In this document: piece after piece, positions 3,309 to 58,094 of the stretch
Layout of the letters: every line of letters begins with the position of its first letter
Position numbering within the stretch: position 1 is the first letter of the stretch
Source: Arcanobacterium sp.
GTDB lineage: Bacteria > Actinomycetota > Actinomycetes > Actinomycetales > Actinomycetaceae
Direction: 5' to 3'
Assembly: GCA_022778805.1 (NCBI GenBank)
Contig: JALFSN010000002.1
Span: forward strand, 186,001-250,000
DNA length: 64,000 bases
Position numbers and translations under genes: made by a program
The notes under the pieces: model-generated
Databases searched by the model: none
What the model was told of the DNA's origin: nothing
Seen by the model: only the letters and a program-made list of their open reading frames with translations

Positions 3309-4098
3309 TCTCCCAGGGCTTTCCCTCCACTAAATCATTGGCGCGCGGCAGGCGTGATATTGCCACACCATTAGTTACACTCACTTTCGCCATCGGGTTT
3401 TCACCGCCCACCCATGCGCTCTCGGCACCGTCAGCTCCGAGTACTATTGGGGAGCCGTCATCTCGCCCTTCCACTGAACCAGTGACGGTGGCAGAACTCA
3501 CCATATACACATCAGTGATATCTAAAGGAGCATCGCCACCATTACGCATTGTGAGCACATGACGTACATAGTTACTCCCTGAAAGCAGCTCTGCACGATA
3601 GCTCACATGCAGATTACGCAAAGCCTCAGGCAGCGCATCTTTAGCATTGAACTCTACTTTCAGCGCTTTGCCCGAATAGCTATCGGCGAAACTTCCTGTG
3701 TCTTGCTCAGCTGGGGTAATATCCACTTTTTGCAAGGTGCCAGCGGTAAAATTGCTCAGATCATACTTTGTGCCACCGTAGGTGAAGGCGAAAAGCTGAT
3801 CCGTACTAAACGGCACCTGCTCAGAGGTGAGTTTATTGTCTACACGACTCACCGCCAGCCCGTTACTCACATCTAGCGTGAGTGACAGCGCATTGTTGCT
3901 CAGCGTGCCCTGGGTGCCTGCCACTACCACGTTCGGTTCGCCAGGAGCCGTTCCAGGGAAAGTGACGGGATTAGCGCTGGGCTGTGTGAGCTCAGCGGAT
4001 TGCGGCTCAGCATAAGCCGCCTGCTCAGATAGGGGAATCAACGAGAACGAAAGCCCAGCGGCAGCTACGAATGCTATGAGTCTGCCCGTTTTCTTCAT
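3256..4098 (-). CDS. N-terminal part of the GH36-like enzyme (signal peptide and beta-sandwich), frameshifted
   Basis: The 280-residue product begins with a signal peptide (MKKTGRLIAFVAAAG, cleavage near AYA-EP) and a beta-rich domain of the kind preceding GH36 barrels. It runs out of frame at VAPGG within a run of seven G (plus strand C 3276-3282). With six G the frame joins directly to QLRRSFSYY of the catalytic part, restoring one protein. A good ribosome site (GAGGGGAAT) precedes the ATG, and the gene starts only 15 bp after the fucosidase stop, so the two were one operon. Cause could be a real mutation, slippage-based switching or a sequencing error. Confidence 0.8.
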   Translation of the reverse strand: MKKTGRLIAFVAAAGLSFSLIPLSEQAAYAEPQSAELTQPSANPVTFPGTAPGEPNVVVAGTQGTLSNNALSLTLDVSNGLAVSRVDNKLTSEQVPFSTDQLFAFTYGGTKYDLSNFTAGTLQKVDITPAEQDTGSFADSYSGKALKVEFNAKDALPEALRNLHVSYRAELLSGSNYVRHVLTMRNGGDAPLDITDVYMVSSATVTGSVEGRDDGSPIVLGADGAESAWVGGENPMAKVSVTNGVAISRLPRANDLVEGKPWEIATTIGVAPGGAASPFI

Positions 4099-4113
4099 AT
4101 TCTTATTCCCCTC

Positions 4114-7100
4114 TCAAGCATTTCGTTTCATCTGCAAAGCCGCGGCTCGCGCTGTCGCGCCACGCACTGCTACGGCTCCCACGCCCAGCAGCAACAGCGC
4201 CACCAGCGCAGTGACTCCAGCTGCAGAACCAGTATTAGGCATCTGCTGCAAACCAGCCACCGATACGCCACCGTTACCAGAATCCTGGCGTCTATCCGGA
4301 TTACCAGCAAACGTTCCAGCGTCAGAGATGCCAGAACCAGGTTTTTCAGCACCAGGTTTTTCAGTGCCCGTGCCTGCGCCAGGCCGCTCACCGCCAGGCT
4401 GCTCACCGCCAGGCTGCTCTGGCTGAGCGGGCTGCGCAGTGCCAGGCTCCCCAGTGCCAGGTTGTTCACCGCCAGTACCAGGCTGAGCAGGATCAACATC
4501 ACCAGGGTTCTCACCGCCGGTACCAGGCTGCTCTCCACCACTTGGCTCTTGCACGTTTTCGCCAATTTCGTACACGTGCCCCGCTTCGGTAGCAAACGTA
4601 ATATGCCGCTCATCAAGGGCGGTCGGCTCCACCATGGCGTTCGCCGTCACATCTTTAATCTTCACCGCACCAGCGCGATCAAACGCGAGCGCAGCGGGAT
4701 TGCCCAGAGCAGAGGTGAGTCTCACTGTACTGATTTCCCCAGCTTTCCAGGCCATGTCCACAGTGAAATTGCCGCGAGCCATGAGCCCCTTAGCACTGCC
4801 TGAAGCAGCCCAGGCATCCGGAAGTGCTGGTAGTAAGTTGACGTAGTTCCGGTATGCCGTGCCGTCTGCTGCCGTAAACGTGCTGTTGGATTGTAGGAGC
4901 ATCTCATTGACGCCGCTAGTATTGCCGAAGTTGCCATCAATCTGGAACGGCGGATGGGCATCGAACAAATTGGGGTACATCGCCTGCTTCAGCTGCTTCT
5001 CAATCAGCAGATACGCATGATTGCCGTCTCCGGTGCGCGCCCACGAGTTGATGCGCTGCCCCACGCCCCAGCCGGTAGCGTCGTCACCGCGATTGCGCAG
5101 CGATACCTTTGCCGCATCCATATAGGTGGCGTTATCGACTGTGATGAGATCTCCTGGGAACAAGCCAAGCAGATGCGACATATGCCGATGCCCTGCCTGA
5201 TAGCCAGGAATATTCGAGCCATCGGCTTTCTTTCCGAAATCACCTTCAAAGAACCATTCTTTAATTTGCCCGCTGCTTCCCACCTCTATAGGTTTGAGCA
5301 ACTCCAGAGCACACGCCCATGAACGATTTGCATCCGGATGGGTGAAAGCACCGTTTGCATCTTTTGCCCAGTTGTCGACCGAACAGGTGCCTGCCCCATT
5401 CAGCTGTTCGGCATCCACTCCCAGCGCAGTGGCTGCCTCCAGCGTATCGTGAAGCAGCTGCCACACGAGCGTACTCTCGTAGGTATTGCCGTCGGTGCCT
5501 TGCGGGCCGTGCTCCGGCGAATACGCAACGCCCGTGGTGAGCCGAGGCTCTCCGTCTGCCGCATTTTGGTTGCCGCGATGCAGCATATAGTTCACATAGA
5601 AATTCGCTTCTTCTTTCAAAAGTGGATAGACGCGATCAGCTAGCAGCTTCTCATCGCCGGTATACTCCCATGCTTCATACACGTTTTGCAGTAACCACGG
5701 CATAGCAGCCGGACTCCATCCCCACGAGAAGTCTTGCCCCGGCGTCGTCCACCCATATGCAGTATTCTCGGTGTGAGCCATATACCCTGCGCCCTCCCCG
5801 ATTGGCGTACCTGCGGTGGTGCGTGCACCGGCATAGATGCCCGCCGTCACTCGTCCTGGCTCCACCAAACTCTCTGCATAGGCGATCAGCGGTTCGGCTA
5901 GTTCAGCAAGGTTGCCTGAATAGGTCGGCCAATAGTTCATTTGCAGATTCACGTTGAGGTGGAAATCCGATCCCCAAGGAGTCGTGCCGTGAGCATTATC
6001 CCCCGCCGTACTCGACCAGATTCCCTGCAAATTCGATGGGAGCTGGCTATCTTCTCGTGACGACGCAATCGTGAGGTAGCGCCCGTACTGATACACCAGC
6101 ATTTCCAGTTCGCGCTTCTGCGCATCGCTGGCTCGTCCCGCTTTGTAGGCCTCAATGAGAGCATCCGTGGCCAGTGCTCCTTCGTCGGAATGTGACGATT
6201 GCCCGAGGTCAATATGCACGCGGTCATAGTATGCGCGGTGGTCTGCCACGTGGGCAGCTTTCACTGCATCAAAACCTTTGTTTGCCGCCGCGCGTACCAC
6301 GCCAGCTACCCGAGTGTGCAGCGCACCAGCACTTTCCCCCGTGCGGTAGGCCGGATATTCATTGCGATAATCAGTAGCTGCAGCAATATAGAGGGTGACG
6401 CCGGTGGCATCTGCCACGTGGAGCGAACCATCCGCGCCACGCGAGACGGTGCCCACGCCACCATCTGGCACTGCTTTCACCTGGGCATCGTAGCGCAGCC
6501 CGTTATTGCCCAATGCTCCTCGCACGCTGAGCGTATCTCCCACTACTTCAGTGGTTTCTCCGTTCTTTGTGGCACCAGGATTAGTAGGCATAGTGAGTGA
6601 GAAGCTCAAACGACGAGCTTCACTGGCGGTGAGCCGCGCCACCATTACGTTATCGGGGTTAGACACGAAGAATTGCCGAGCATAGTCCACACCATCGTGA
6701 GTGAAGCGCACGTTAGCCAAACCTTGTGAGAGGTTCAAGCTGCGCTGATAGTTCGTGGCCGCGCTATCGGCAAAACCGTAGTTGATGTAGATATTTCCCC
6801 AGTTTTGATAGGCTCCCTGCGCCGCTGGGTTTTCACCGCCGGTGAGGTTTCTGGGGTTCACGGTCTGCGCGCCTGCCTCCAACTGGCGATTCAAATCGCG
6901 CAGCGTGGCTCCATCGCGGCCTTTCGTGGCATTGTTACCGCCGTTATACGCCGTCACGGATCCAGGACCGCCTGTCCACAGTGTCTCTTCATTAAACGTA
7001 ATCCGCTCGTTGGAAATCTCTCCCCACACGGTGCCGCCCACTTTGCCGTTGCCAATGGGGAGTGTAGTGCGCTGCCACCGATCGTTGTCTCCGCCGTCAC

Positions 7101-8250
7101 CACCAGGCAGCGTTCCTTTAGGCACACTCCCGAGTGCAGTAGCAGAAGCCGGAGCGGTATACCACATGACGTCGTCGCCGCTGGTATCGCCATCGCCTGC
7201 ATCGTTCACGGTGCTCACCACCTGCACATTAAACGTAGCCGTGACGCTGGGGTCTTCACGGTACGTGACGACGATTGGATAAGATCCGATGGCAGAGCTG
7301 TCGAATGCTGAGGAATCGAGTGAGTACCGCTCAGCGGTGAGAAGCGTTTCAGCGCCGGTGGCAGTCTCATGTAGCGTGACGGCGAGTCCCGCTGGATCGA
7401 ATGCTTCACCCTTTTCATAGGCAGTCTTCGTAGGCAGCGCAAGAGCGAGAGTGAAATCTGGTTCCTGCGGCGTCACGATCATTCGCGGTGCCATATCTGC
7501 CGTGGTGCCTGCGAGAGTACCACCTGCACCTTCACTAGAGGCAAAACGCAGTTCTGTGCCGCTCGCCTCTTGCATAGCAAAAGTGACGACTTTGTGCCCA
7601 GCTGCAAATTGTGCAGCCACAATAGCCGTAACGTCCAGATCTACTGCTCGCGTGTTTGCCGGATTGATGCGCATGCTATCGCCCGTGTATTGCACTGATC
7701 CATACGGGAAGGGAGCGGACTGCGCAACCAACGTATCGGCATTCACGGTGAAACGCGGACGAGTTGCCCACGTGGCAGTTGCCGTAGGGCACGCAGAAGC
7801 TGAATTAGTACACACATTGGTATCCACTGCCGTCACGCTGATCTTTGTGGTATCACTGGCATTCTTCGTGCCTCGGAAGCCCACATACGTAAGTCTCATC
7901 GTCGCTTGCTGAGGGGCTCTATCGTATGCACTGAGATCGAACGTCAGCAGACCCATCTTGGCATCCGTCTGGTCACTCGTATTTGTCGATTCAAATTGTT
8001 CTCCAAACGTGCCCCGCCCGCTCGGAAGCAGCGCGCCGATGTACGGCTTACTCGCCATAGACTGAGTCTTCTCGCTTCCCCAGGCCTGCAATGTGGTATC
8101 TGCTTGTACAGCCACAGATTCTTCCTCTGGAGCCGCCCACGCGGGAGACGCCAACAGGCTAGAAATAACGGCCATCGCTGCCACTACAATGGCGGCTGCA
8201 CTTCTGCGCGCCCTACTCTGATGCGCTTTTCCCCTTGCAAAACTTCGCAT
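4114..8250 (-). CDS. Wall-anchored alpha-L-fucosidase, GH95 family
   Basis: The ~1378-residue secreted enzyme probably removes alpha-1,2-linked fucose from host glycans. In order: signal peptide (cleavage after AWA, about residue 39), a DNRLRE/CBM96-like beta domain (~48-265), an Ig-like domain (~270-345), a GH95 catalytic region (~360-1120), a Gly/Pro/Gln-rich wall linker from ~1235, then MPNTG, a membrane helix and a basic tail. The motif [12 protein letters not shown] near residue 766 carries the paired Asn known to be catalytic in GH95, and IDGNFG near 1102 carries the catalytic Asp. I chose ATG 8250 over the upstream ATG because GGGGA lies just before it and the signal peptide follows. 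It is the first gene of an operon with the GH36-like enzyme. Family assignment is firm; substrate is inferred. Confidence 0.93.
4338..4366. repeat. 29-bp identical block in the fucosidase tail (copy 2)
   Basis: Identical to 275-303 and in the same orientation. Recombination between the two would delete the whole GH36-like gene, or exchange wall anchors between the enzymes. Confidence 0.85.
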
Positions 8251-8501
8251 ACTTATTTCCCCAGATTTCCCTAGACACGTCTCATTCGGCCTTGCCCACA
8301 TGCATCGGTGCATGATGTGCTGACGTACAGTGCTAGTTATTGCGGTGTTGTGTGTTGTCTACACTCCGATGCCGCACACCACTTTGTGTCGCGTGGCAGT
8401 ACAAGCGCAGACAGCAGGAATCGTACTATGTGCCATCCGCCAAGACGTAAGACGTAAGTTCTAGATCTACTCATCACAGATGGGGGGAGTAAAGTCCAGA
8501 T

Positions 8502-8560
8502 GCGCGAAAGGGGCTCTAGCTTCCCCGATTTCACGGTAGACATACTAGAACCCCTCGCGC
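8502..8560. other. Imperfect inverted repeat in a gene-free stretch
   Basis: Arms at 8502-8519 (gcgcgaaaggggctctag) and 8545-8560 (ctagaacccctcgcgc) pair apart from a 2-base bulge and one mismatch. It lies between the repeat surface protein and the fucosidase on the minus strand and may end transcription of the former, but no clear T-run follows. I see nothing else in 8251-8694. Confidence 0.4.
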
Positions 8561-8694
8561 TATCTCACGTTGCGCCTATCGTGCATCCATAAGCGCCCCG
8601 TGCATTATGCCAGGTTTACAGCACGTGTGAGCAACGCTATGCGAGCAACGCTGACAAGTTTCACAGGCTTGCGGCACTATGCCGAATCCGACTC

Positions 8695-9984
8695 TCAGCT
8701 CTGCTTACTTCTGCTGCGTAGGAAAAGCCCCGCTGAGAGAGCCACCACACTCATCAGAAACATACCGGTGAGCCCCGCACCAGTCTGCGAAAGCTGTGCC
8801 CTCTTGTCCTCTGCTTTTTGAGACTGAGCGGAAACGTCTGGCTGAGCGGGCTGCTTAGGCTGCGTAGGAGTTGCCGCAGATGCGCTCGGCTGTTCGGGCT
8901 GAGTTGGCTGAGCTGGAGTAGGCGAAACAGGCTCCGCCGGTTGTGCAGGTTGTGCAGGTTCCTCAGGCTGAGCTGGCTGCTCGGGCTCATCACCGCCAGG
9001 CTGTTCGGGCTCCTCCGGAGTCGGCGTCACGGCCGAGCATGCTGCTTTCTCCTCTTCCGTCATATCGCGCAGCTGCTCGTTTTTCTCGGTTTGCGGAGCA
9101 TCTTCAACCCACGCTCCCTGTTCATCACTCCAGGAGTGCGTGGTGGTAGTCGTCGTCCGAGTCTGCTTCACTTTCAGCGCTTCGCAATCGCGGGCATCTG
9201 CGCCAGTAGCATCGCTCCAGTCCGACGTCACGACCTTATCCTCAGGCTTAGCAGGCTTGTTCTTCTTGAGCGTCACCGTGGGATACGTGCGATGATCTGC
9301 TTTCTCATCTACGACAGACACGACAATAGGGAACTCGCCAAAAGCATTGGCAGCTGGCAGATCGTCAGAATTGACGTAGAGGTAGCCGCGGTAGACGCCG
9401 TTCTTGGAAAAAGTATTGGCTTTAGAATTGGGCAACGAATCGACGTGCCCCACGACGACTCCCTCAGGAGGGGTCAGCAGGCTATACACGTACGCGGCAT
9501 CAATGGTTTGCCCGTCGGGTACGACCACCGGATCGCTCGGTGCAGTAAAGGTAATGGGCGCTGGCCGATTTCTTGTGAACTTCACCGTCGGGTACTGCTT
9601 AGTGTTATTTTTCTTCTCGTGCGTGAACGTCACGACCACTTCAAAATTTCCGTATTGATCAGCAGCAGGCAGCGTTGTTGAATCAACCCACAGGTAGCCC
9701 TCATACGCCCCATTGCGGGAGACCGTACCAGCTTTTGAATTGGGCAACGAATCGACATGCCCAACTTTCACTCCTGCAGGAGCAATGAGCTGCTTATACA
9801 CATACTCAGCATTAACGACTTGCCCCTCCGGCACGACCACCGGATTCTTTGGTACCGTAAAGACGATCGGATCGACCGATGTTGGCGTAGCCGCAAATGC
9901 TTGCGTCCCTGCCATGAACGCCGAAAAGAACAGCAAGAGCGCTGGTATCAGCGCTAGCGACCGATGCTTATGCCATGTACGCAT
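8695..9984 (-). CDS. Wall-anchored repeat surface protein, function unknown
   Basis: The 429-residue protein has a signal peptide (cleavage near AFA-AT, residue 31) and two tandem repeats of about 95 residues (~37-132 and ~134-228). Each repeat begins FTVP/FTAP.PVVVP.GQ and contains VGHVDSLPNSKA. A middle segment with a Thr run is followed by a Pro/Gln/Glu-rich stalk (~300-390), LSQTG, a hydrophobic helix and RSRSKQS. AAGGGGA precedes the ATG. The repeats resemble stalk modules of Gram-positive surface proteins; an adhesin or structural role is plausible, but no binding domain is recognised. Confidence 0.88.
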   Translation of the reverse strand: MRTWHKHRSLALIPALLLFFSAFMAGTQAFAATPTSVDPIVFTVPKNPVVVPEGQVVNAEYVYKQLIAPAGVKVGHVDSLPNSKAGTVSRNGAYEGYLWVDSTTLPAADQYGNFEVVVTFTHEKKNNTKQYPTVKFTRNRPAPITFTAPSDPVVVPDGQTIDAAYVYSLLTPPEGVVVGHVDSLPNSKANTFSKNGVYRGYLYVNSDDLPAANAFGEFPIVVSVVDEKADHRTYPTVTLKKNKPAKPEDKVVTSDWSDATGADARDCEALKVKQTRTTTTTTHSWSDEQGAWVEDAPQTEKNEQLRDMTEEEKAACSAVTPTPEEPEQPGGDEPEQPAQPEEPAQPAQPAEPVSPTPAQPTQPEQPSASAATPTQPKQPAQPDVSAQSQKAEDKRAQLSQTGAGLTGMFLMSVVALSAGLFLRSRSKQS

Positions 9985-10197
9985 ATTTTCCCCTTATGAT
10001 AGCTGACGTGACTTGAGGAATCTCTATTACGGCTTGCCCCACGTCTCTATTACGATTTACACCACGCGCACAAATTGACACGAGGCGCCACGTATTATTT
10101 TTCCATGGCTCATTCTAGCTTCACTAGGGCTTTGAGCTGGGAGCTTACTCACAATTCGACTCACGCACAACTCGCTGAGGCACAATCCGATTGACAC

Positions 10198-10572
10198 TCA
10201 ATTCGATTGACGCGAGCGGGAGACGTAGCGCCGAATCAGAGCCGTGACGCCGTTGGCGATACCCCCGAAGACGCTGTAGATCACTCCGTATATAAACGCA
10301 GAGTCATTGTAGAAAATGTACATCGGAGCGATGAAACAGGCGCACGGTGCTATCAACCACAGCAAGCTAAACCCCTCTTTTACCCCATCCCACACTGCGA
10401 CTGCAATCGTCAGAACCGGAAAAATCAGGAACAGTGCGAGGAAGATGACGCCTTTCCACGCCTCGTAGGCGCCGCTGATATCCATTGCCGTATTCGCTAT
10501 GAACGGCACCAGCATGAAGCAGGCACATACTATTGCGATTCGCACCCACGTGCTCTTCGTTTTCCATCTCAT
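10198..10572 (-). CDS. Small membrane protein, hypothetical
   Basis: The 124-residue product has about four hydrophobic segments (IAIVCACFMLVPFIA, FLALFLIFPVLTIAV, LLWLIAPCACFIAPM, and one near GVIYSVFGGIANG) and basic ends, so it is probably an inner-membrane protein. AGGTGA lies directly before the ATG. No family was recognised, and no neighbour on the same strand suggests a role. Confidence 0.65.
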   Translation of the reverse strand: MRWKTKSTWVRIAIVCACFMLVPFIANTAMDISGAYEAWKGVIFLALFLIFPVLTIAVAVWDGVKEGFSLLWLIAPCACFIAPMYIFYNDSAFIYGVIYSVFGGIANGVTALIRRYVSRSRQSN

Positions 10573-10770
10573 TCACCTATTTTCACATAGTCCGATTTTC
10601 ATAGCTAGAGGCGGCCACTACAGGCCGATATAGCAGACAGGTGGGCTGCGTAGCACGCCACCGTTGCATGCATCTCACCCGCATCGGCGCCGCCTCATAT
10701 CCCCACATCCCCACGTCTCAATCACCGTCTGGCAGCGACAAACCGCCTCGGAGCCAATAAGCTATCGGCT

Positions 10771-11586
10771 ATGCTGATATCCAGACCGTTTTTGTTTGTT
10801 CAATGCCGTCCCGCTGGCAACATCGAACGCGATGAAAAACAGACGATCGCACATGCAGGGGGCCTCACCATAGGGAAAGATCTGCGCGCACACGTCTTGC
10901 TGGAAGAACCAGATTTCGACCCCGTAAGAGATCTCGATCTGAAAGACGACTACTCCGGCGTCATTATTTCTGGATCCCCATTCAAAGCCGAACCACTCAA
11001 GGCCAAGCCATTCAAAGCTGAACCACTCAAAGCCGAACCATTCAAAGCCGAGGCTACTGCCACGCCGAATACTCCGGAGCGACGTCATCTGCACGCGCGG
11101 CTCACGGCACTCGCGCAATATCTACTCGATAATGATGTACCTACGTTAGGGCTGTGCTACGGATTGCAGATGCTGGCTCTAGCTAGCGGGACGAGCCTCA
11201 CAGATCAGACTAGCGAAGATCTACAAGCCGTGGATATCACTATCACTCCCGAGGGGCACCGCGACCCCGTCACGAGCCATCTTGGCAATACGATTCGCGC
11301 GTATACCGGCCATGAAGATTCGCTCGCCAGCCTACCTGCAGGGGCTACGCTGCTGGGGTGCGGAGAGCACTGCCGGTACCAGCTCGTGCGCTTCGGCACA
11401 AACATTTACGGCACCCAATTCCATCCCGAAATCACCACGCCAGGAATGCGCATCCGCATTGATCAGTACGGTGGCACATATTACGACGCCACTATGCGTG
11501 ACGCCGTCACAGCACGATGCATGTCGCAAGACGTCACCAGTTCGCATCGTTTAATCTCCGCCTTTACTGATTATTTCCGCCGTTAG
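10771..11586 (+). CDS. Class I glutamine amidotransferase-like protein
   Basis: The 271-residue protein resembles GMP-synthase-type glutamine amidotransferases. The nucleophile elbow LGLCYGLQML carries the catalytic Cys, and TQFHPEI carries the His-Glu pair. Between residues ~71 and ~95 it has an in-frame run of five 5-residue repeats (FKAEP/LKAKP/FKAEP/LKAEP/FKAEA) placed right after SGSP, where the family has a short loop. It ends 10 bp before the ATP-dependent carboxylate-amine ligase gene, so the two are probably co-transcribed and may act in one amide- or peptide-forming pathway; substrate unknown. No clear ribosome site precedes the ATG. Confidence 0.85.
   Translation: MLISRPFLFVQCRPAGNIERDEKQTIAHAGGLTIGKDLRAHVLLEEPDFDPVRDLDLKDDYSGVIISGSPFKAEPLKAKPFKAEPLKAEPFKAEATATPNTPERRHLHARLTALAQYLLDNDVPTLGLCYGLQMLALASGTSLTDQTSEDLQAVDITITPEGHRDPVTSHLGNTIRAYTGHEDSLASLPAGATLLGCGEHCRYQLVRFGTNIYGTQFHPEITTPGMRIRIDQYGGTYYDATMRDAVTARCMSQDVTSSHRLISAFTDYFRR
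10981..11055 (+). repeat. 15-bp coding tandem repeat, five units
   Basis: Five in-frame 15-base units alternate between ttcaaagccgaacca and ctcaaagccgaacca types inside the amidotransferase gene. The unit length keeps the reading frame, so copy-number change would lengthen or shorten a surface loop without destroying the protein. Confidence 0.85.
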
Positions 11587-11596
11587 GAGGCAGCAC

Positions 11597-12796
11597 ATGG
11601 GCATCTCTTTCGCGCACTCCACCCGCTCCACCATTGGTATCGAGTGGGAATTACAGCTTCTCGATAAAGACTCGCTCGACCTGCGCCAATGCGCGCCGAC
11701 CATTCTCGAAGAAGTGGAGCGCCGGCACCCAGGCAATGGCCTGGTACACCGAGAGATGCTTCTCAACACTGTAGAGATTATTTCCAAGCCGCAGCGCACC
11801 GTGCGCGCATGCCTCGCTGATCTGCGTAAAGGGATAGAACTGCTGCTTCCTATCACTGCCGATCTGCGGGTAGAGCTGGCGTCGTCTGGATCTCACCCAT
11901 TCGCCAATCCCAGCTACCAGCAAGTGACCGACAATGAGCGCTATAGCGAACTGATTAACCGCACCCAATGGTGGGGGCGCCAAATGCTCCTCTTCGGCAC
12001 CCATGTACACGTCGGCATAGAGAATCGCGATAAAGTCCTCCCCATCCAAAATTATCTGTGCACAAAATTGGGGCATATACAGGCACTCTTCGCATCTTCT
12101 CCATACTGGGCTGGCACCGACACCGGCTACACCGACAATCGCGCCATGGTGTTTCAGCAGCTGCCCACGGCCGGCAAGCCCTACCAATTCGAGACCTGGC
12201 AGCAGCTTGAGCAGTTCACCGATGGAATGCGCAAAACCGGCGTCATTCGTTCATTTGATGAGGTGCGCTGGGACATTCGCCCCTCGCCAAAATTTGGCAC
12301 GATTGAAGTGCGCATCGCAGATGCTTCCTCGAACGAAAAAGAAGTAGCTGCGTGTGGCGCTCTGATTCACGCTCTCGTTGAGACGGCGTCACGGCGTCTC
12401 GATAAAGGCGAGGAGCTAGAGCGAATACCCGATTGGTTCGTCAGGGAGAATAGGTGGCGCGCTGCGCGCTACGGCATGGACGCAGTCTTGATTGAGAATG
12501 CCGCTGGGGAAGAAGGCCATATTGCAGATTCATTGCCGATCTGGCTCGATGAGCTGACGCCGGCAGCCGAATATCTGGGATGTGCCGAAGAGCTGTGGGC
12601 TATCGAGGATATCGTGCGGGTGGGCGTCGGGTATCAGCGGCAAAGAGCCATCTTTCAGTTCACCAGCTCCTACGATAGCGTGGTGGAACACATGATTGCC
12701 GAGATGAAAGCAGCTAAGCCCATTAGCCCTGATGCTTTCATCTCGACGTGCGAACAATCACGGTGGGTCAAAGGACGCCTCACGTACCTTCGCTAA
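11597..12796 (+). CDS. Carboxylate-amine ligase, YbdK/glutamate-cysteine ligase type 2 family
   Basis: The 399-residue protein matches the GCS2 (YbdK/EgtA-like) fold. It starts with GIEWELQLLD (family IGxExE-type ATP/Mg motif), followed by NTVEI, GTHVHVGI and EVRIADAS, all hallmarks of the family. Members join an amino acid carboxylate to an amine using ATP; some make gamma-glutamylcysteine, others have no known substrate. A strong AGGAGG sits 6 bases before the ATG, 10 bp after the amidotransferase stop. Length is normal. A 25-bp tandem duplication covers its stop codon. Confidence 0.9.
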   Translation: MGISFAHSTRSTIGIEWELQLLDKDSLDLRQCAPTILEEVERRHPGNGLVHREMLLNTVEIISKPQRTVRACLADLRKGIELLLPITADLRVELASSGSHPFANPSYQQVTDNERYSELINRTQWWGRQMLLFGTHVHVGIENRDKVLPIQNYLCTKLGHIQALFASSPYWAGTDTGYTDNRAMVFQQLPTAGKPYQFETWQQLEQFTDGMRKTGVIRSFDEVRWDIRPSPKFGTIEVRIADASSNEKEVAACGALIHALVETASRRLDKGEELERIPDWFVRENRWRAARYGMDAVLIENAAGEEGHIADSLPIWLDELTPAAEYLGCAEELWAIEDIVRVGVGYQRQRAIFQFTSSYDSVVEHMIAEMKAAKPISPDAFISTCEQSRWVKGRLTYLR

Positions 12797-12839
12797 CTCG
12801 GGATTGCTACAGCCTCGCTAACTCACGATTGTTACAGCT
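12790..12839. repeat. 25-bp tandem duplication spanning two convergent stop codons
   Basis: Copies at 12790-12814 and 12815-12839 match at 21 of 25 positions and start tcgctaactc. Copy 1 contains the ligase stop (TAA); copy 2 contains the stop of the convergent DUF3021 gene. It looks like replication slippage at a gene end. Confidence 0.8.
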
Positions 12840-13272
12840 TCTCGTTGATGTTTCGGACTTCCGCGCGAGCCAGAAAATACATCACCAACCAGATCGCCAG
12901 GTAGATGACCACAATCATCACGACGATTCCCAGCAGCTCGATGCCTGATTTCCACCACTTCAGATACGTGCCGGCCGCCAGCCCACAGATGAGCACGATA
13001 CTTCCGTGCATGGCTGACGTGAGCATAAGCGGGCGTTTCTCATTTCCATAGAGCAAGGAAGCGAAAGCGCAGATAGCCCCATAGAGAGCATAGATGACGC
13101 GCTCTATCAGCACTGCATTATTAATATTTTCAAACCCATCTAGAAAACCAGGGGTGCCTGGCGAATAGCCCTGCCCCGCTATATAAGAACATATAAGTTC
13201 AATCGTGACGCCGATAGCAATACCAACACATGCGCCAAGGGCTGCAGTGCTGACGACTTCTTTCGTTCTCAT
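12832..13272 (-). CDS. DUF3021-like membrane protein
   Basis: The 146-residue protein has four predicted membrane helices (VVSTAALGACVGIAIGV; IYALYGAICAFASLLY; GSIVLICGLAAGTYL; IVVMIVVIYLAIWLVMYFL), the DUF3021 layout. In Firmicutes and actinobacteria such proteins are usually encoded beside a LytTR regulator, as here, and are thought to modulate it at the membrane. I chose ATG 13272 because GAGGA precedes it; the longer frame upstream is low-complexity and lacks a site. Confidence 0.75.
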   Translation of the reverse strand: MRTKEVVSTAALGACVGIAIGVTIELICSYIAGQGYSPGTPGFLDGFENINNAVLIERVIYALYGAICAFASLLYGNEKRPLMLTSAMHGSIVLICGLAAGTYLKWWKSGIELLGIVVMIVVIYLAIWLVMYFLARAEVRNINEKL

Positions 13273-13445
13273 CTCCGGTTCCTCTCTATACGTCTTTCTG
13301 TATACCTGTGTTTTGTGCGCGCCCGTTTCGCGCGCCCGTTTGCATTTCTGTGTGCTCTTGTGCCCCCTCCACGCGTTTCTGTGCGTTTCTGTGTGTTTCT
13401 TGCACGTCCACCGCGAAAATCGCGCAGGTATCACTTGCAGGGCAG

Positions 13446-13892
13446 TCAAAGACCGAGTGCCCCTTTGAACGCCCGCAGTTGGCGGCGGGATACGTAATAG
13501 CGGGTGCCGTCTTTCAAACGCACAGAAATCGTGGTAGAAAGCGAAAGATCAAGCCGCTCTATCGCTGATATATTGACGATTTCTGACTGCGATATCCGCA
13601 CGAATGACGACGGCGGCAGCACACTTTCGATTTCATATAGCCGAGCTTTGATCTTCCAATCTCCGCTGGCCGTGTGGGCATAAACAGCTTTATCTTTGGT
13701 AAAAAATGCGAGAGTAGAGCGCACGTCGAGCAATGCCGCCTCATGCGCTCGAATGCCGACGATTTTGTGCATCGGGGAAGCCGCAACGAACTCTTGGAGT
13801 GCACGCACGTCGTCATCAATCTCACGTGCCGTCACGGAAATCAACGTCTCCGTGACGCTCGGATCAATAGTGAGGTTAAATCGCACCATCAT
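13446..13892 (-). CDS. LytTR-family DNA-binding regulator
   Basis: The 148-residue regulator has a short N-terminal region and a C-terminal LytTR domain (~55-148) with ALLDVRSTLAFFTKDKAVY, SFVRISQSEIVNISAIE and GTRYYVSRRQLR, all family signatures. It lacks a receiver domain, typical of regulators paired with a DUF3021 membrane protein. GGGAGG lies just before two adjacent ATG codons (13892 and 13889); the second has better spacing. A 173-base A/G-rich spacer with repeated cacagaaacgc units separates it from the DUF3021 gene. Confidence 0.85.
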   Translation of the reverse strand: MMVRFNLTIDPSVTETLISVTAREIDDDVRALQEFVAASPMHKIVGIRAHEAALLDVRSTLAFFTKDKAVYAHTASGDWKIKARLYEIESVLPPSSFVRISQSEIVNISAIERLDLSLSTTISVRLKDGTRYYVSRRQLRAFKGALGL

Positions 13893-14184
13893 CCTCCCTC
13901 TTCCCTCAGCTAGTTGTGCTTTCTTGCAGCTGGCTTCCTCACGTACGCTGTCTCGCCCACGTGCTTCCAGTAAACCGAGATGGGGTATGGGATGTCGAGC
14001 TACAACGCTAAGCGAGGGAGTATCGGCGACAAGCGGAAATGGGGCAGAGACGGTCGAGCCGAAGCCGGAAAGGAGCTTGAAGCGGCAAAGTAGCGTTTGA
14101 AGCCGCAAAAGCGGCAAAACGGCAAAAAATATGGCCGCAGCCAGATCTGCATAGGGTAATTCGCGCACACTGTCGTTCATACGC

Positions 14185-14218
14185 ATTTCATGCACTATGA
14201 AATGTACTAGTAGTGCAT
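14185..14218. promoter_or_regulatory. Nested dyads upstream of the LytTR gene
   Basis: ATTTCAT-gcact-ATGAAAT (14185-14203) overlaps a second dyad with arms ATGCACTA (14190-14197) and TAGTGCAT (14211-14218). It is ~290 bp upstream of the LytTR start and just past the end of the dehydrogenase gene. It could be a binding site or a weak terminator; low certainty. The rest of 13893-14256 is only imperfect gcggcaaaa-type repeats. Confidence 0.3.
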
Positions 14219-14256
14219 CCACCCAACAGATCTGGCCACGGCCATGCCGCGTGGCA

Positions 14257-15177
14257 TCACGCCCGAGCTGCAGCCTCCGGCGAGACCATCTCAGGATTCG
14301 GGCCCGTGATATTGCCATCTTCATCGTAGAGGTAGAAACCTTTGCCGGTAGCCAGCCCCGTCACGCCCTTATCAATCTGCCGCTTCAGCAGCCAGGCAAA
14401 CGAACCCTCTTCTTCACCCATTCGCCCTCTGTTGATGTTGTATGCCACGTTGAAGCCGACGACGTCATACATCTCAAACGGCGACTTTACTGATTTCGTG
14501 GCCACATGCCAGGTGTTGTCGATATCCTCCGGAGAGGCGTACCCGTTCACCCACAGATCCGCCGCTGCGTTGAGGAACGGAATGAGCAGGGAATTGAGCA
14601 GATATCCTGGCACTTCTTTTTGAATCGGAATCGGCACCAGATTGATCGACTTAGCAAAATCCAACACCGCATTGAACGTCTCATCCGAGGTCTTCGGCGT
14701 GCGCATCACTTCACCGGTGTTATTGCGCCACACGAGGTTGGCGAAGTGCAGCGTCGTAAATTTCTCCGGCCGCCCCGTGGCCTCCATAAAGTCCGAGGGA
14801 CGCAGCGACGACGTATTTGTAGCAAAAATCGCATGCTCAGGCGCACCCTCGTTTACTTCAGCCCACACTTTCTTTTTCAGATCGAGAATTTCAGGCACGG
14901 CTTCAATCACGAGGTCTGCCTGCGCCACTGCTTCTTTCAGATTGCTTGACGTCGAAATTCGCGTGACCGCATCCTTAAACTTCTCATCGCTATAGTCGCT
15001 AAGATCGCGCAGATAATGCCCGCGGATCCACTCCCAACGCTCGGGGAGTTTGGCGAGAATTTCATCGCTGATGTCATATGCCACTACATTTTTCCCAGCC
15101 CATGCATTTTGCATAATGATCTGCGAACCCAAGACGCCCGTGCCCAGCACCGTGACGTTATTGATATTCGAGGACAT
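14257..15177 (-). CDS. 3-hydroxyacyl-CoA dehydrogenase family protein
   Basis: The 306-residue NAD-dependent dehydrogenase has the Rossmann motif VTVLGTGVLGSQI near the N-terminus, VIEAVPE and NTSSLRPSDF in the NAD domain, HFANLVWRNN at the catalytic His, and a C-terminal dimerisation domain ending GKGFYLYD. It probably interconverts 3-hydroxyacyl- and 3-oxoacyl-CoA, as in butyrate/fatty-acid metabolism. No other beta-oxidation genes are nearby, so its pathway is open. AAGGAG lies 7 bases before ATG 15177; the longer frame lacks a site. Confidence 0.9.
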   Translation of the reverse strand: MSSNINNVTVLGTGVLGSQIIMQNAWAGKNVVAYDISDEILAKLPERWEWIRGHYLRDLSDYSDEKFKDAVTRISTSSNLKEAVAQADLVIEAVPEILDLKKKVWAEVNEGAPEHAIFATNTSSLRPSDFMEATGRPEKFTTLHFANLVWRNNTGEVMRTPKTSDETFNAVLDFAKSINLVPIPIQKEVPGYLLNSLLIPFLNAAADLWVNGYASPEDIDNTWHVATKSVKSPFEMYDVVGFNVAYNINRGRMGEEEGSFAWLLKRQIDKGVTGLATGKGFYLYDEDGNITGPNPEMVSPEAAARA

Positions 15178-15489
15178 ATCTGCTCCTTCACTCCGTTGTA
15201 GGTATTTCGTCCTGTGTGGTGATTGTAACGTCGCATCCCTTGACACTTATTCCCGACACAATCCCTTGAACTGACGATGCAACCGCAGTTGGCAAAAGGC
15301 GTCTCTCGACAGCGCGTTCCACGCCATGAGCACGCGTTACAACACGTACGCCGTCACCGCGCACACCTAGCGCGTAGAGCCACGAGCCAACTATGCGCAC
15401 CGCCGTCACGCACGCTTTTCAGAAAAGTCGAGTCGCGTAGGCACGGCATCCGATCAGGCGATATCCGGCAGATGATATTGGGCAAAAAG

Positions 15490-16764
15490 TCAGAGCGTAC
15501 CGGCAGGAATCGTGCCCTCAATCTTTGTCGTCACCGAACCTGTACCATGAGCCTCAATACCGCCCACAGACAGCGCATTAACGGCGGCGCCTTCCAGCAC
15601 TTCAAAGCTCACGAGATGATCACCCTCGGTAGCCACGACTCCTCCGATCGTGAGAGCGGTCAGCTCCCCACCAGGTTTGATGGAAACGCCAATCGCCTGC
15701 AAGGGCATCTGCACGCCTTTCACCAAGCTCAACCCCTCAGCACCAGTAGTACGCACATCACCCGTCACCTCAAGTGAGCCCATTGGTTTAGAAACCTGGA
15801 TGCCAATAGCACCGTCACCATGCGTGGTAATCGATTGGAATTTTGCCGACTGCACTGAGCCGTCATACACGTTGAAACCGCGTGCCCCGAGGCCACTCGT
15901 GACAATCGGAGCATTGATCTCCAGGTGCCCCATATCGCCAAAATTCACAAACCCAATGCCGGAAGCACCCGTGGAAGTGATAGCTTCATTCGCCACCCAC
16001 TCCGGCGTTCTTCCCCACAGATCCAGCACCATATCGTTGGGTCCGTGCGTCGTCACCGGCCCATTATTCTCCACGCGATCTACGATTGCTCCGCCGAGCA
16101 CAAACACGCCGCCGGTAATTTTGTCGGGAGTCCCCTGAACGATTCCGCCATCGGTCACAATCGTATCCGTCTCGATGAGATCAGCCGTAAACTTGCCGCC
16201 AGCTAGCTTGCCCTCGCGGTCAGTGTAGCCATCCACAAAAATGCCCGACCCGCGCACCGGCGTTTCTTCTGTACCCGCACTAATTCCGCGCAGCGTGGCT
16301 GTGAAGAGCGAATCCGGATCCGGATTGCGATTCCAGAGTGTGAAGCCTCCTTGTAGCACATCCACGCCGTAGCCGTGCGGCTGCTCCACTCTCCCGCGCA
16401 CATCGGCGCTCTTGACAAACACGTGGTCTGCTTCCACGCGTACCTTCTTCAGCTCGCCCTCGGCAATAATGTACACTTGGCCAACCGTGGTGACGTTGTT
16501 CAAGCGGAACGTGCCCGCATCGGCAAGAGACGTGCTGTTGTACACAGCCACCTCATAATCAGTGGTGGTAATCGTGACATCACGCAGGGTATTGTTCTTC
16601 GTGAGCCGCACGCCTTTCGCCGTAAACTCCAACGTGCCGCCGCTAAGCGTCGCTCCCTCGGGCAGCGTTATCGAGGGCGAGCCGCTAATCGTGCCCTCCA
16701 CCTCAATGTTTTGCTCACCAGCTTCAATCGCGGCGGCCAATTCTTTCACAGAAGTAACTTTCAT
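15490..16764 (-). CDS. Right-handed beta-helix-like protein, unknown function
   Basis: The 424-residue product is built of repetitive short beta strands with Asn/Gly/Val/Thr turns (ITLPEGATLSGGTLEF; NTLRDVTITTTDYEVAVYN), like pectate-lyase-type beta-helices. It lacks a signal peptide or membrane segment, which is unusual because most such helices are secreted. A gap of 28 bp separates it from the metallo-hydrolase upstream, suggesting an operon. No catalytic residues were recognised. The ATG at 16764 is preceded by GGGAG at a long spacing. Confidence 0.75.
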   Translation of the reverse strand: MKVTSVKELAAAIEAGEQNIEVEGTISGSPSITLPEGATLSGGTLEFTAKGVRLTKNNTLRDVTITTTDYEVAVYNSTSLADAGTFRLNNVTTVGQVYIIAEGELKKVRVEADHVFVKSADVRGRVEQPHGYGVDVLQGGFTLWNRNPDPDSLFTATLRGISAGTEETPVRGSGIFVDGYTDREGKLAGGKFTADLIETDTIVTDGGIVQGTPDKITGGVFVLGGAIVDRVENNGPVTTHGPNDMVLDLWGRTPEWVANEAITSTGASGIGFVNFGDMGHLEINAPIVTSGLGARGFNVYDGSVQSAKFQSITTHGDGAIGIQVSKPMGSLEVTGDVRTTGAEGLSLVKGVQMPLQAIGVSIKPGGELTALTIGGVVATEGDHLVSFEVLEGAAVNALSVGGIEAHGTGSVTTKIEGTIPAGTL

Positions 16765-16792
16765 GGTTGATCTTTTTTCTCCCTTGCCATAC

Positions 16793-17446
16793 TCACTGCT
16801 GAGCAGGCACATTAATCGTTATTGAATCACCAGTGCCCAGCGCCACTGCCTCTCCACCGTAGCTCTGCGCAATTCGAGCAAGCGTTTTTTGAGCAAACTC
16901 GCGCCCTAGATCATTGAGCGTAGCATCGTGTATCCCAATCACCCGTTTAGGCCGCACGCGTCGCAAGTACTCTTCTAGCTGCGGATTGTTTTGCCAGGGG
17001 GCAGCGAGCGCCGTCAAGAGCGTATCCACTCCCTCACAATCCTGATGCGCATCTCCTGGATGCAAGACAGCGCCAGCAACGAGGTATCCCACGTTCGGAA
17101 TGACGCCGTCATCCAAACTCGCTCTAGCCTGCTCTTTGCCCACCACACGCACGGGAATATCTCCCACGGTGAAAGCATCTCCCTCAGCTACGAGCGTGAC
17201 GTCTGAATCTGGGGCGTCAAGAGACAGCGGCGTGGGCGAAAACACTTTAAGCTGCGGGTGGGCGCGAATTGAGGCCGCAAGGGAGGGCACATCCACATGA
17301 TCGAAATGATTGTGGGTGACGAGTACCGCATCAGCGCTCTCCACGCTCTCGGGATATCCAAAATACCCAGGATCCACCACGATTGAGGTGGTCTCTGAGG
17401 AAATCGTCACCGCCGCATGAACGCCACGAGTGATCGTCAGTTGCAT
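16793..17446 (-). CDS. Metallo-beta-lactamase-fold hydrolase (UlaG-like)
   Basis: The 217-residue cytoplasmic protein carries the metal-binding motif HNHFDH near residue 69, with further ligands in LHPGDAHQD and IHDATLND. The compact form without large insertions fits the UlaG-like/L-ascorbate-lactonase or general MBL hydrolase group. Substrate unknown. AAGGAG precedes ATG 17446. It leads into the beta-helix gene. Confidence 0.85.
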   Translation of the reverse strand: MQLTITRGVHAAVTISSETTSIVVDPGYFGYPESVESADAVLVTHNHFDHVDVPSLAASIRAHPQLKVFSPTPLSLDAPDSDVTLVAEGDAFTVGDIPVRVVGKEQARASLDDGVIPNVGYLVAGAVLHPGDAHQDCEGVDTLLTALAAPWQNNPQLEEYLRRVRPKRVIGIHDATLNDLGREFAQKTLARIAQSYGGEAVALGTGDSITINVPAQQ

Positions 17447-18105
17447 AGGAACTCCTTCACGAAACCAGTCACGAAGAGCAAGATGGGATACTACATCAGG
17501 CTGCGAAACCAAACCGCAAGATCAGGACACGCAAACACCTGCGTCGCTTTCAGAAAACCCGAACGGTGAAAGTGGGATATTAATTCCCGCCCACCTCTGC
17601 CTGTATCCTCTCGCATCTTTCTTCCCCTTTTGGCCCTTCCCCTTTCCTTTTTTCTTCCCCTTTTGCCCTGCGAAAGATCGACAACTTGCCTTGGAAAAGA
17701 CCTACAACGTGGAGAAGCATATGGCACGACACATACGGCACGAGACGCATATCACATAAATCCTCGTGGGGAATTATCTGTCACCTCGGGTTGTTGTGGT
17801 GGATGTAGCTGCTGTAGACGGATGAACGCCGCGGAGCTTCGTGAAAATCTAATCTCAAGACATTAAAAACAGATCTGATTCGATGAAGCCGAGCTGACGC
17901 TCAGGCGCCTGCGGCGATAGCTAAAAATAGCTAAAGATAACCAACATAAAAGTGACGGCTACGAGTTCTATAACGTTGGGCCCCAGAGTGTAGCTCTAGA
18001 GCCAGGAACCTAGAGTACGGGCACTCAGGCCCGCATCTGAACGTGAAAACATCAATCTGAAACGTAGCCAGCGAAGATAAAGACAGATAGGAAAGGTTCA
18101 CTGAT
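17447..18105. other. Gene-free stretch, pyrimidine-rich
   Basis: No long frame is convincing. Positions ~17580-17680 are strongly C/T-rich. A 12-codon frame at 17720-17758 (MARHIRHETHIT) has GGAG before it and could be a leader peptide, but nothing supports it further. CTCTAG/CTAGAG dyads occur near 17991-18015. Confidence 0.4.
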
Positions 18106-56080: not shown

Positions 56081-56130
56081 ATAAAATTCAAAGCCCAGCG
56101 CCTATCGATATATCGAGCGGCACTGGGCTT
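56081..56130 (-). terminator. Original tRNA-Lys terminator, now displaced
   Basis: On the minus strand AAGCCCAGTGCC and GGCGCTGGGCTT pair (one G-T) and are followed by TGAATTTT. It lies directly after the partial tRNA-Lys copy at 56133-56162, as expected for the terminator of the tRNA before the islet was inserted. Confidence 0.75.
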
Positions 56131-56132
56131 AT

Positions 56133-56162
56133 GCGGTAGGCCCCACGGGACTCGAACCCGTA
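56133..56162 (-). repeat. 30-bp duplicated 3' end of tRNA-Lys (distal att site)
   Basis: Identical to 58018-58047: it contains the T-arm and acceptor 3' strand of tRNA-Lys plus 3 flanking bases (starts gcggtaggccccacgggact). A partial tRNA end on one side with the intact tRNA on the other is the classic mark of an element integrated into a tRNA gene. Confidence 0.9.
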
Positions 56163-56249
56163 GCTCTATAGAATAGAAACCCCGTCCGCTCCCATTGTAG
56201 CCAGCATTACAAGTATTGATAAATGGCGCGCTGCTTACGGAACGCTACC

Positions 56250-57500
56250 TTAGATGGCAGGATGCCTCCACAACGAGCAGATAGGAAGCAAGTAGGAGCC
56301 ACCTGTGCGGCGCTGTACCTGATCGCCAAGATAGAGCACCACTTTTGCAGCAATTCGTTCACTGCGGATTGCGGAATCGAGCTTTCGCCAAGCATCTGCT
56401 GGCGCCGTCATCCCCGATTTCACTTCTATAAGAATTATTCTGCCGTCAAAGAGTTCCACTACCACGTCGATCTCTTCGTTTCGCTGCCGGTAGTGGTAGA
56501 GCCTATAAGGCTGCTCACTCCAGGTTTGCTGCTTACGTAATTCAGCCACCACGAATTGCTCAGTGAGCGCGCCGAAATACTCCCTCCCACCAATTACATT
56601 AGCTTTTTCAAGAGTCATTCCTGCCAAGTAGGCAGACAACCCAGTATCATTGAGCGACGCTTTCGGCCTGCGTACCACCCTCGCACTCATCGCCATCCCC
56701 CATGCTGGGAGCTGATTAACGAGATACATTTGCTCAGCCAACGCCAGGTACTGCCGAGCTGTACCCTCAGAAACGCCAAGCTGACGAGCAAATTTAGCTA
56801 TCACGAGTTCTGACTGTCCGCCACTGGCAAGCAACGAAAGCAGTCTACTGAGGGTGGCAGAGAAAGCACCTCCAGCAAGCTCGGCTGCGTCTCGGGAAGA
56901 GAGCTCCCGCACATACGCCGAGTACCAACGATTGCGAGCTTTCCATTCGGAGCGTTGCAACGGCACAGGATAACCCCCAGCGAGAATCGCTTCTTTCGTC
57001 TGCAAAACTGGCTCAACCTGCACATCTCCAGGAGCTCCGGCCAAAATCCAATTCACCCAATCTTCCGGAGTAGAACGTTGCTCAAGCTCCCCAACGCTTA
57101 GTGGATTAAGCGATAAAATTTCTGCTCTGCCGGCAAGGGAATCCGAGGATCCCTGCACTTTCAGAAAATCTGCCGAGCCAGTGATGAGAAATTTCGCAGG
57201 CCGGTGATCTTGATCTACCTCTCGTTTGAGAGCCAACACGAGTGACGGCTCTCGCTGCGCTTCGTCGATAATGAGTAGCCGATCCGAAGCCTGATGCAAA
57301 AAGCCGACTGGGTCACTGCTCGCAAAGCTCATAGCATTCGGGTCATCAAGTGTGACTGTGGTAGATGGCACAGCTAACGCAGCTTGCTGAGCAAGGGTAG
57401 ATTTACCCACCTGGCGAGCCCCTTCTATCACCACCACAGGAGATTCACTCAGCATTTCTTTCAGCAGCATAAGCGCATGCCGATTTACTTGATTTTTCAA
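56250..57500 (-). CDS. AAA+ ATPase with DUF4143 (AAA_14) in the tRNA-Lys islet
   Basis: The 416-residue protein has Walker A EGARQVGKST near residue 26, Walker B RLLIIDEAQ, then the DUF4143 region (~200-400) with a winged-helix-like part (IAKFARQLGVSEGTARQYLALAEQ), SLNDTGLSAYLAG and a PD-(D/E)xK-like end (EEIDVVVELFDGRIILIEVKSG). This family is widespread, often on variable DNA, and poorly understood. The start is a TTG at 57500 without a ribosome site; ATG 57470 is an alternative. It contains D and ExK residues in the order of a PD-(D/E)xK nuclease-like fold, which is suggestive only. Confidence 0.87.
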   Translation of the reverse strand: MKNQVNRHALMLLKEMLSESPVVVIEGARQVGKSTLAQQAALAVPSTTVTLDDPNAMSFASSDPVGFLHQASDRLLIIDEAQREPSLVLALKREVDQDHRPAKFLITGSADFLKVQGSSDSLAGRAEILSLNPLSVGELEQRSTPEDWVNWILAGAPGDVQVEPVLQTKEAILAGGYPVPLQRSEWKARNRWYSAYVRELSSRDAAELAGGAFSATLSRLLSLLASGGQSELVIAKFARQLGVSEGTARQYLALAEQMYLVNQLPAWGMAMSARVVRRPKASLNDTGLSAYLAGMTLEKANVIGGREYFGALTEQFVVAELRKQQTWSEQPYRLYHYRQRNEEIDVVVELFDGRIILIEVKSGMTAPADAWRKLDSAIRSERIAAKVVLYLGDQVQRRTGGSYLLPICSLWRHPAI

Positions 57501-57531
57501 GGTAAAAACGAAAAAACAGTACCATAATTTG

Positions 57532-57633
57532 CGGATTTACCACACCATTTATACGGATTTGCCAAACTTTTTTTACGGACTTGCCAGAGCTTTTGGCGCT
57601 TACACATTAAAAGACTCAAAGGCGATTTGCCAC
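57532..57633. repeat. Iteron-like direct repeats with 22-bp spacing
   Basis: cggatttaccac (57532), cggatttgccaa (57554) and cggacttgccag (57576) start exactly 22 bases apart; a fourth, weaker copy gcgatttgccac starts at 57622. They lie between the two divergent islet genes. Such helically phased repeats suit cooperative binding by a repressor such as the adjacent HTH protein, or an origin. Confidence 0.75.
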
Positions 57634-57701
57634 ATATTGGCGTGTCTAACTTGTTATAAACAAAAATTAATACGCAATTGTTATCGCAAAATACGAAATA
57701 T

Positions 57702-57717
57702 TGCTATACTTGCACCT
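57702..57717 (+). promoter_or_regulatory. Extended -10 promoter for a leaderless HTH gene
   Basis: TGCTATACT (extended -10) ends at 57710, only 7 bases before the ATG at 57718, so transcription should begin at or next to the start codon. There is no ribosome site. Leaderless mRNAs are common in actinobacteria. Confidence 0.6.
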
Positions 57718-58083
57718 ATGAGCGCATTAGATCAGGAATCTCGCACCGTTGAGATTGAAAGTTTTGTGGATATCGTTGCCGAAAACATTAGAGCACTAGC
57801 GGCGCTGCATGGGATGAGTCAGAAAGAGCTTGCTGAGGAGATTGGAATGACGCAAGCCGCTGCAAGTGTTCGCTGGCGCGGCAAGCGGCAGTGGCAGCTT
57901 GAGGATATCCAAAAAGTAGCAGAAATCTTTGGTATTAATCCCTGGGAGATTACGCAGCCCCACATGAATATGGGGAACGCCCGCCGATTGGCGAGCGTTC
58001 CGAATGCCTCACAGGAAGCGGTAGGCCCCACGGGACTCGAACCCGTAACCTACAGATTAAAAGTCTGGAGCTCTACCAATTGA
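57718..58083 (+). CDS. Cro/CI-type HTH regulator reading into tRNA-Lys
   Basis: The 121-residue protein has an HTH domain at ~20-75 (LAALHGMSQKELAEEIGMTQAAASVRWRGKRQW). The last ~22 residues (EAVGPTGLEPVTYRLKV...) are encoded by the antisense strand of the tRNA-Lys gene and are a junction product, not an ancestral domain. In a circular form joined at the repeats the frame would instead stop a few codons after LEPV. It probably controls the islet through the nearby phased repeats. Confidence 0.75.
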   Translation: MSALDQESRTVEIESFVDIVAENIRALAALHGMSQKELAEEIGMTQAAASVRWRGKRQWQLEDIQKVAEIFGINPWEITQPHMNMGNARRLASVPNASQEAVGPTGLEPVTYRLKVWSSTN

Positions 58084-58094
58084 GCTAGAGGCCC
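58022..58094 (-). tRNA. tRNA-Lys (TTT)
   Basis: The minus strand folds as a cloverleaf: acceptor GGGCCTC/GGGGCCT, D-arm AGCTCAATTGGTAGAGC, anticodon loop CTTTTAA (anticodon TTT), T-arm ACGGGTTCGAGTCCCGT, discriminator A. No encoded CCA. It is the integration target of the adjacent islet and remains intact. Confidence 0.95.

Follow-up and report, generated by a model that had tools for sequence, protein, structure and literature searches.

A two-gene islet at a tRNA-Lys gene of Arcanobacterium sp., probably reduced from a small temperate siphophage, with a candidate defence ATPase and phased promoter repeats

What has come to lie between a tRNA-Lys gene and its terminator, leaving a repeated tRNA end on either side? 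In the window, by which we mean the whole stretch of 64,000 nucleotides analysed from contig JALFSN010000002.1 of Arcanobacterium sp., the 3' end of tRNA-Lys recurs as a direct repeat, identical at 30 of 30 positions, with the two copies 1,885 bp apart. The distal copy runs directly into a strong terminator-like hairpin in tRNA orientation, which bears out the proposal of an earlier note that an insertion of about 1.9 kb split the tRNA from its terminator; where congener loci were read, a hairpin also directly follows the tRNA in several of the empty sites. Open reading frames and Pfam matches agree with that note on what lies between the repeats: one AAA_14 plus DUF4143 gene on the minus strand, one XRE-type HTH gene on the plus strand, and, among these ORFs, no integrase. 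Nor are any fragments of integrase or virion genes left in the islet. The features of the locus are as follows.

56091..56130, minus strand: hairpin of the original tRNA-Lys terminator, displaced to the far side of the islet (inverted repeat; fold -28 kcal/mol)
56133..56162, minus strand: second (distal) att core, an exact copy of the tRNA-Lys 3' end
56250..57500, minus strand: gene for an AAA_14-wHTH-DUF4143 protein, PADLOC PDC-S01 candidate, TTG start (Pfam; PADLOC)
57532..57594, minus strand: three 22-bp phased direct repeats upstream of the ATPase gene (repeat scan; a feature found family-wide)
57639..57646, plus strand: GGCGTGTC, candidate repressor operator (octamer common to related phages)
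57718..58083, plus strand: XRE-type HTH gene, homologue of phage immunity repressors (Pfam HTH_3; PHROGs transcriptional repressor, E 4e-12)
57974..58001, no strand: GC hairpin in the 3' end of the repressor gene (inverted repeat; fold)
58018..58047, minus strand: tRNA-proximal att core at the tRNA 3' end (exact 30-bp repeat)
58020..58094, minus strand: tRNA-Lys gene, anticodon ttt, the attB gene (ARAGORN)

Two of these features had been overlooked. The HTH reading frame passes through the att core and into the tRNA, with no stop before the tRNA, and the core therefore lies inside the HTH gene. In translation, the plus strand of the tRNA-proximal core encodes part of the protein's C-terminus, and the protein closes with GPTGLEPVTYRLKVWSSTN, translated from the antisense strand of tRNA-Lys. 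The element also carries a GC hairpin of its own (57974-58001), lying some 17 nt away from where the tRNA ends, and similar hairpin sequence occurs at the tRNA-Lys copies of two congeners, G002 and G005. This hairpin may act as a stand-in for the displaced tRNA terminator.

The islet is a polymorphic insertion, because at six congener loci read the tRNA-Lys end is present once and the islet absent, while the host genome holds exactly two copies of the att core. Most congeners have one copy, as does the seventh lacking the element, G008, and G005 alone among congeners has a second. Relatives are thus not all alike, seven of nine congeners being without the element, and the earlier description of a clean integration footprint holds as that of a site-specific insertion. 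G002 has a related HTH gene at a contig end; draft contigs break at both the G002 and the G005 islets, and as an RpiR gene was not found in the relatives, the left flank of the former could not be followed. No second copy of the present islet with its ATPase gene turned up among the congeners or in the genome-contig scan. In a genome of a related genus (G010, locus L022), a different element, with primase-polymerase-like and RepA-like genes, adjoins tRNA-Lys.

Of 213 genomes from this bacterial family, 38 have homologues of the HTH protein. At all of the 16 best-scoring loci whose contig includes the tRNA, the homologue ends inside a tRNA gene, the tRNAs being tRNA-Asn, two kinds of tRNA-Arg, tRNA-Lys(ctt) and tRNA-Lys(ttt). 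In phages these genes are often paired with a cro-like gene, and elsewhere they are solitary; no close relative was found in viral contigs or phage records. Most related phages tested have the octamer GGCGTGTC, or one nearly the same, 49-80 nt upstream of the repressor. There are two copies of it in the whole window, and we treat it as a candidate operator by virtue of this shared placement.

Ten HTH homologues, in ten related genomes, sit at one end of elements of 15.3-17.6 kb. A second tRNA 3' end at the other side of each gives att repeats of 35-80 bp, and that opposite end holds a tyrosine integrase in the same orientation, some 14-17 kb off. The five elements whose genes were listed look like small siphophages, with terminase, portal, capsid, tape measure and lysin, a call made by eye from gene size, order and sequence and with no virion profile scan. 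Phage-form repressors were derived by joining, in the computer, the repressor side to the distal att flank. Their tails read -WGLAA (L085, L087), -RLAA (L097), -TLAA (L098) and -VLVA (L089), while those of L059, L092 and L093 have no recognisable degron; most of the integrated forms terminate inside the tRNA with ..SNQQPSD or a near relative of it. Integrases of the full elements often end in -VAA, -AAA or -SAA. Such tags on both phage-form repressors and integrases are hallmarks of integration-dependent immunity, a pattern known from mycobacteriophages and from a prophage of Bifidobacterium (PMC9262239, PMC6109161).

With phages of that kind (mycobacteriophages of the BPs/Brujita type and Bifidobacterium Bb423phi2), the islet shares an att core within the repressor gene and an attB within a tRNA gene. 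Its full-length relatives resemble them further: the integrase sits at the other end of the prophage, and phage-form repressors as well as integrases bear ssrA-like tails. The islet differs in having no integrase and no virion genes and in carrying PDC-S01, and its circle-form repressor would end in -GLEPVAL, shorter than the integrated form and without a degron. Because it fails defining features of the class, it is filed as a derivative. We consider it probable that the islet is the reduced relic of a small temperate siphophage of tRNA-Lys with integration-dependent immunity. Five facts weigh against that reading: the circle-form repressor gains no degron; the reading does not account for how the ATPase gene came in, DUF4143 genes being absent from the full prophages among the matches listed; the islet retains no piece of an integrase or virion gene; the repressor is not kept everywhere, the G002 copy having lost its 5' part; and some phage-form tails (L059, L092, L093) are themselves free of a recognisable degron.

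The earlier note had instead proposed a satellite mobilised by the integrase of another element. Nothing shows a satellite, and reduction of a mini-prophage explains the islet better because the HTH protein is homologous to phage repressors whose genes terminate within tRNAs. A true minimal satellite, still moved by the integrase of a co-infecting tRNA-Lys phage while repressor and PDC-S01 shield the host, could draw on the two perfect 30-bp cores and on the armless integrases described for integration-dependent immunity phages, for which core sequences suffice (PMC9262239). It could draw also on a further repressor islet, of 1.7 kb, at a tRNA-Asn (L090), and on G005, where an integrase of this type begins some 120 bp from where the same tRNA-Lys att core begins, so that a phage of this class uses the islet's site. 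However, the congeners and the genome-contig scan yielded no second copy of this islet with its ATPase gene, and the HTH of G002 is 83% identical to that of the window over the part retained, much as neighbouring chromosomal genes are (82-84%), which fits vertical descent. On balance we find a satellite quite improbable. The earlier note had suggested looking for a tRNA-Lys integrase elsewhere in the host genome, but no in-house helper was found there. Of a closely related integrase, only a broken 3' end was seen, beside tRNA-Pro (L075:6499-6700), which has an alanine-rich tag at its terminus and is 68% identical over 65 residues to the tRNA-Lys integrase of G005.

Further traces of such phages were seen at tRNA genes. 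At tRNA-Lys of G005 (contig C34, L101:9110-9410), a stretch left of the distal att looks like the 3' terminus of a further repressor copy; 37 bp there match the tRNA side exactly, which suggests that related phages used this tRNA repeatedly. At tRNA-Asn of G002 (L059:1231-1639, 1499-17847), a full prophage separates the tRNA from a decayed repressor of older date, whose frame now crosses the distal att core into the tail of the newer phage.

Repressors at tRNAs without an integrase occur in about ten other genomes, most of them directly beside chromosomal genes. The host genome itself has a second lone repressor at tRNA-Asn (L082:18336-18680), 52% identical to that of the islet, which ends in the tRNA and has a chromosomal HAD-like gene directly upstream. 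Two short tRNA-Asn islets, at L090 (16715-18482) and at L099 (reaching from some 1.2 kb to the left of the tRNA), also belong here and bear a repressor, with neither integrase nor PDC-S01 in either. The wider set of remnants lacking an integrase, together with the loss of integrase and virion genes here and the truncated repressor of G002, would also suit a decaying prophage scar in which the ATPase is a neutral passenger and nothing has a present function. Yet both islet ORFs are intact, as are the nuclease and ATPase residues, the candidate operator and the repeats persist, and the HTH gene compared with that of G002 gives a dN/dS of 0.10 at a dS of 1.2, a ratio that indicates purifying selection. 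A functionless scar is therefore, in our judgement, rather unlikely.

The other islet gene encodes a protein that matches the PADLOC PDC-S01 profile over its full length (residues 1-413, E 8.6e-129). PDC-S01 (AAA_14-DUF4143), an ATPase fused to a PD-(D/E)XK domain, has been ranked the fourth most common (putative) defence across prokaryotes, with validation pending for most such candidates (PMC12988326). The islet protein likewise joins the two parts, and its Walker and PD-(D/E)XK residues are invariant in 40 aligned homologues; what differs is the setting, a probable tRNA-anchored phage relic. While a PDB sequence search gave no match, an AlphaFold2 model of all 415 residues has a mean pLDDT of 92.6, and the closest structural matches of the ATPase plus winged helix (VIA) are archaeal AAA ATPases and NLR/CED-4 proteins, with Z of 13-17 over about 250 residues at an rmsd near 5. 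In the model this part may resemble STAND NTPases (Avs, NLR, Apaf-1/CED-4) and the archaeal ATPases PABY2304 and SSO1545, a shared fold being no proof of function. Unlike STAND NTPases, the islet protein lacks C-terminal sensor repeats (TPR, WD, LRR), and the model ends in DUF4143 with PD-(D/E)XK-type residues, placing a predicted nuclease at the C-terminus. PDC-S01 may be described as a candidate phage-defence family with a STAND-like ATPase-wHTH and a PD-(D/E)XK nuclease.

Two ways of accounting for the gene's presence were dropped. It does not appear to be phage cargo, having no relative in viral contigs and no PHROGs match, and it is no habitual cargo of tRNA islets, a tRNA lying within about 1.5 kb at only 4 of some 85 loci. 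One genome, G366, holds 19 DUF4143 genes, some near one another.

The phased repeats noted earlier upstream of the ATPase gene are real. On the plus strand, CGGAYTTRCCA occurs exactly in the 64 kb only at 57532, 57554 and 57576, at a spacing of 22 bp, with a weaker fourth repeat near 57625, and the period-22 score stands at z = 15 over dinucleotide shuffles. A like layout was first noticed upstream of other DUF4143 genes. Upstream self-similarity was scored at shifts of 18-28 bp, from start codons assigned by rule, in a sample mostly from the phylum of the window plus 16 plasmid genes and including Alpha- and Gammaproteobacteria among its PDC-S01-type genes. In a first pass, a score of at least 11 was reached by 28 of 66 genes versus 22 of 300 control genes, the period being 22 or 23 in 26 of the 28; the top two controls proved to be DUF4143 genes themselves. 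With DUF4143 genes taken out of the controls (n = 300), a 22-23-bp array was found in 29 of 80 PDC-S01-type genes versus 6 of 300 (Fisher 1e-16), and in 17 of 46 clusters at 50% identity (4e-12), the score threshold and the 22-23-bp class having been picked once these data had already been inspected. Long palindromes precede 19 of the 80 versus 8 of 300 controls, and an array or a long palindrome precedes 46 of the 80 versus 14 of 300. The median array comprises 3.5 copies, its end lying 26 bp ahead of the start codon, a placement to be expected of promoter-proximal operators. Phased repeats belong, then, to PDC-S01-type genes in general and are not special to the islet. A literature search of incomplete coverage turned up one paper that names DUF4143 and no prior report of such arrays at PDC-S01 promoters. 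At five PDC-S01-type gene starts (L115, L174, L178, L108 and L171), big near-perfect palindromes with arms of up to 25 bp stand without strong direct-repeat arrays.

These results split the earlier suggestion that the cargo could be a defence, addiction or replication module. Its defence part gains a candidate gene from the PDC-S01 match, and its replication part falls away, since repeats of the same period precede PDC-S01-type genes elsewhere, on chromosomes and plasmids, and so are not replication iterons. A role of the repeats as operators of the HTH repressor is not supported either: upstream of 14 related repressors there is no period-22/23 array, and the shared element is GGCGTGTC. Coevolution of protein and repeat was dropped as well, repeat and protein sequence showing no correlation either overall (Spearman -0.06, Mantel p 0.79) or below 60% protein identity.

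The two genes diverge from a common promoter region of 217 bp that holds both the repeats and GGCGTGTC, an arrangement that invites the idea of a functional pair, with the HTH protein as dedicated regulator or antitoxin of the ATPase-nuclease. A small repressor, RptR of E. coli, can indeed hold a defence promoter with direct repeats (PMC12255303). The likeness lies in the direct repeats of the defence locus promoter; RptR is a separate small repressor with 9-bp repeats, whereas PDC-S01 has arrays of 22-23 bp and its own predicted winged helix. A dedicated pair is unlikely, however, given that in phages the partner of the HTH homologue is often a cro-like gene, that elsewhere the homologue has no partner, and that repeats also precede PDC-S01-type genes with no such HTH gene beside them. 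More broadly, and with some doubt, we offer the tentative proposal that PDC-S01 genes are controlled through their promoters, where the STAND-like ATPase-nuclease itself would bind the 22-23-bp phased arrays or the long palindromes, and, as a separate matter, that lone integration-dependent repressors at tRNAs form a recurring class of minimal immunity islet.

For the phage relic that we favour, we infer the following course. The ancestor would have been a small temperate siphophage integrated at tRNA-Lys and possessing integration-dependent immunity, its att core lying inside the repressor gene such that the integrated repressor would end with residues from the tRNA antisense strand. A later deletion would have taken out the integrase and virion genes but spared the repressor and the two att cores; a PDC-S01 gene is present as well, at the position that phage early genes would have. 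The repressor probably binds an operator near 57639-57646 and would block related mini-siphophages, while the PDC-S01 protein would provide a second, nuclease-based defence, its transcription possibly controlled, perhaps by the protein itself, through the 22-bp repeats. Excision of the islet in trans by a related phage is conceivable in principle, since the integrases of such phages have been described as armless. Read in this manner, the two-gene islet is tied to a family of very small actinobacterial prophages, which often leave just their repressor at the tRNA. For PDC-S01, very abundant and with no known mechanism, the promoter repeats offer a cheap and testable handle.
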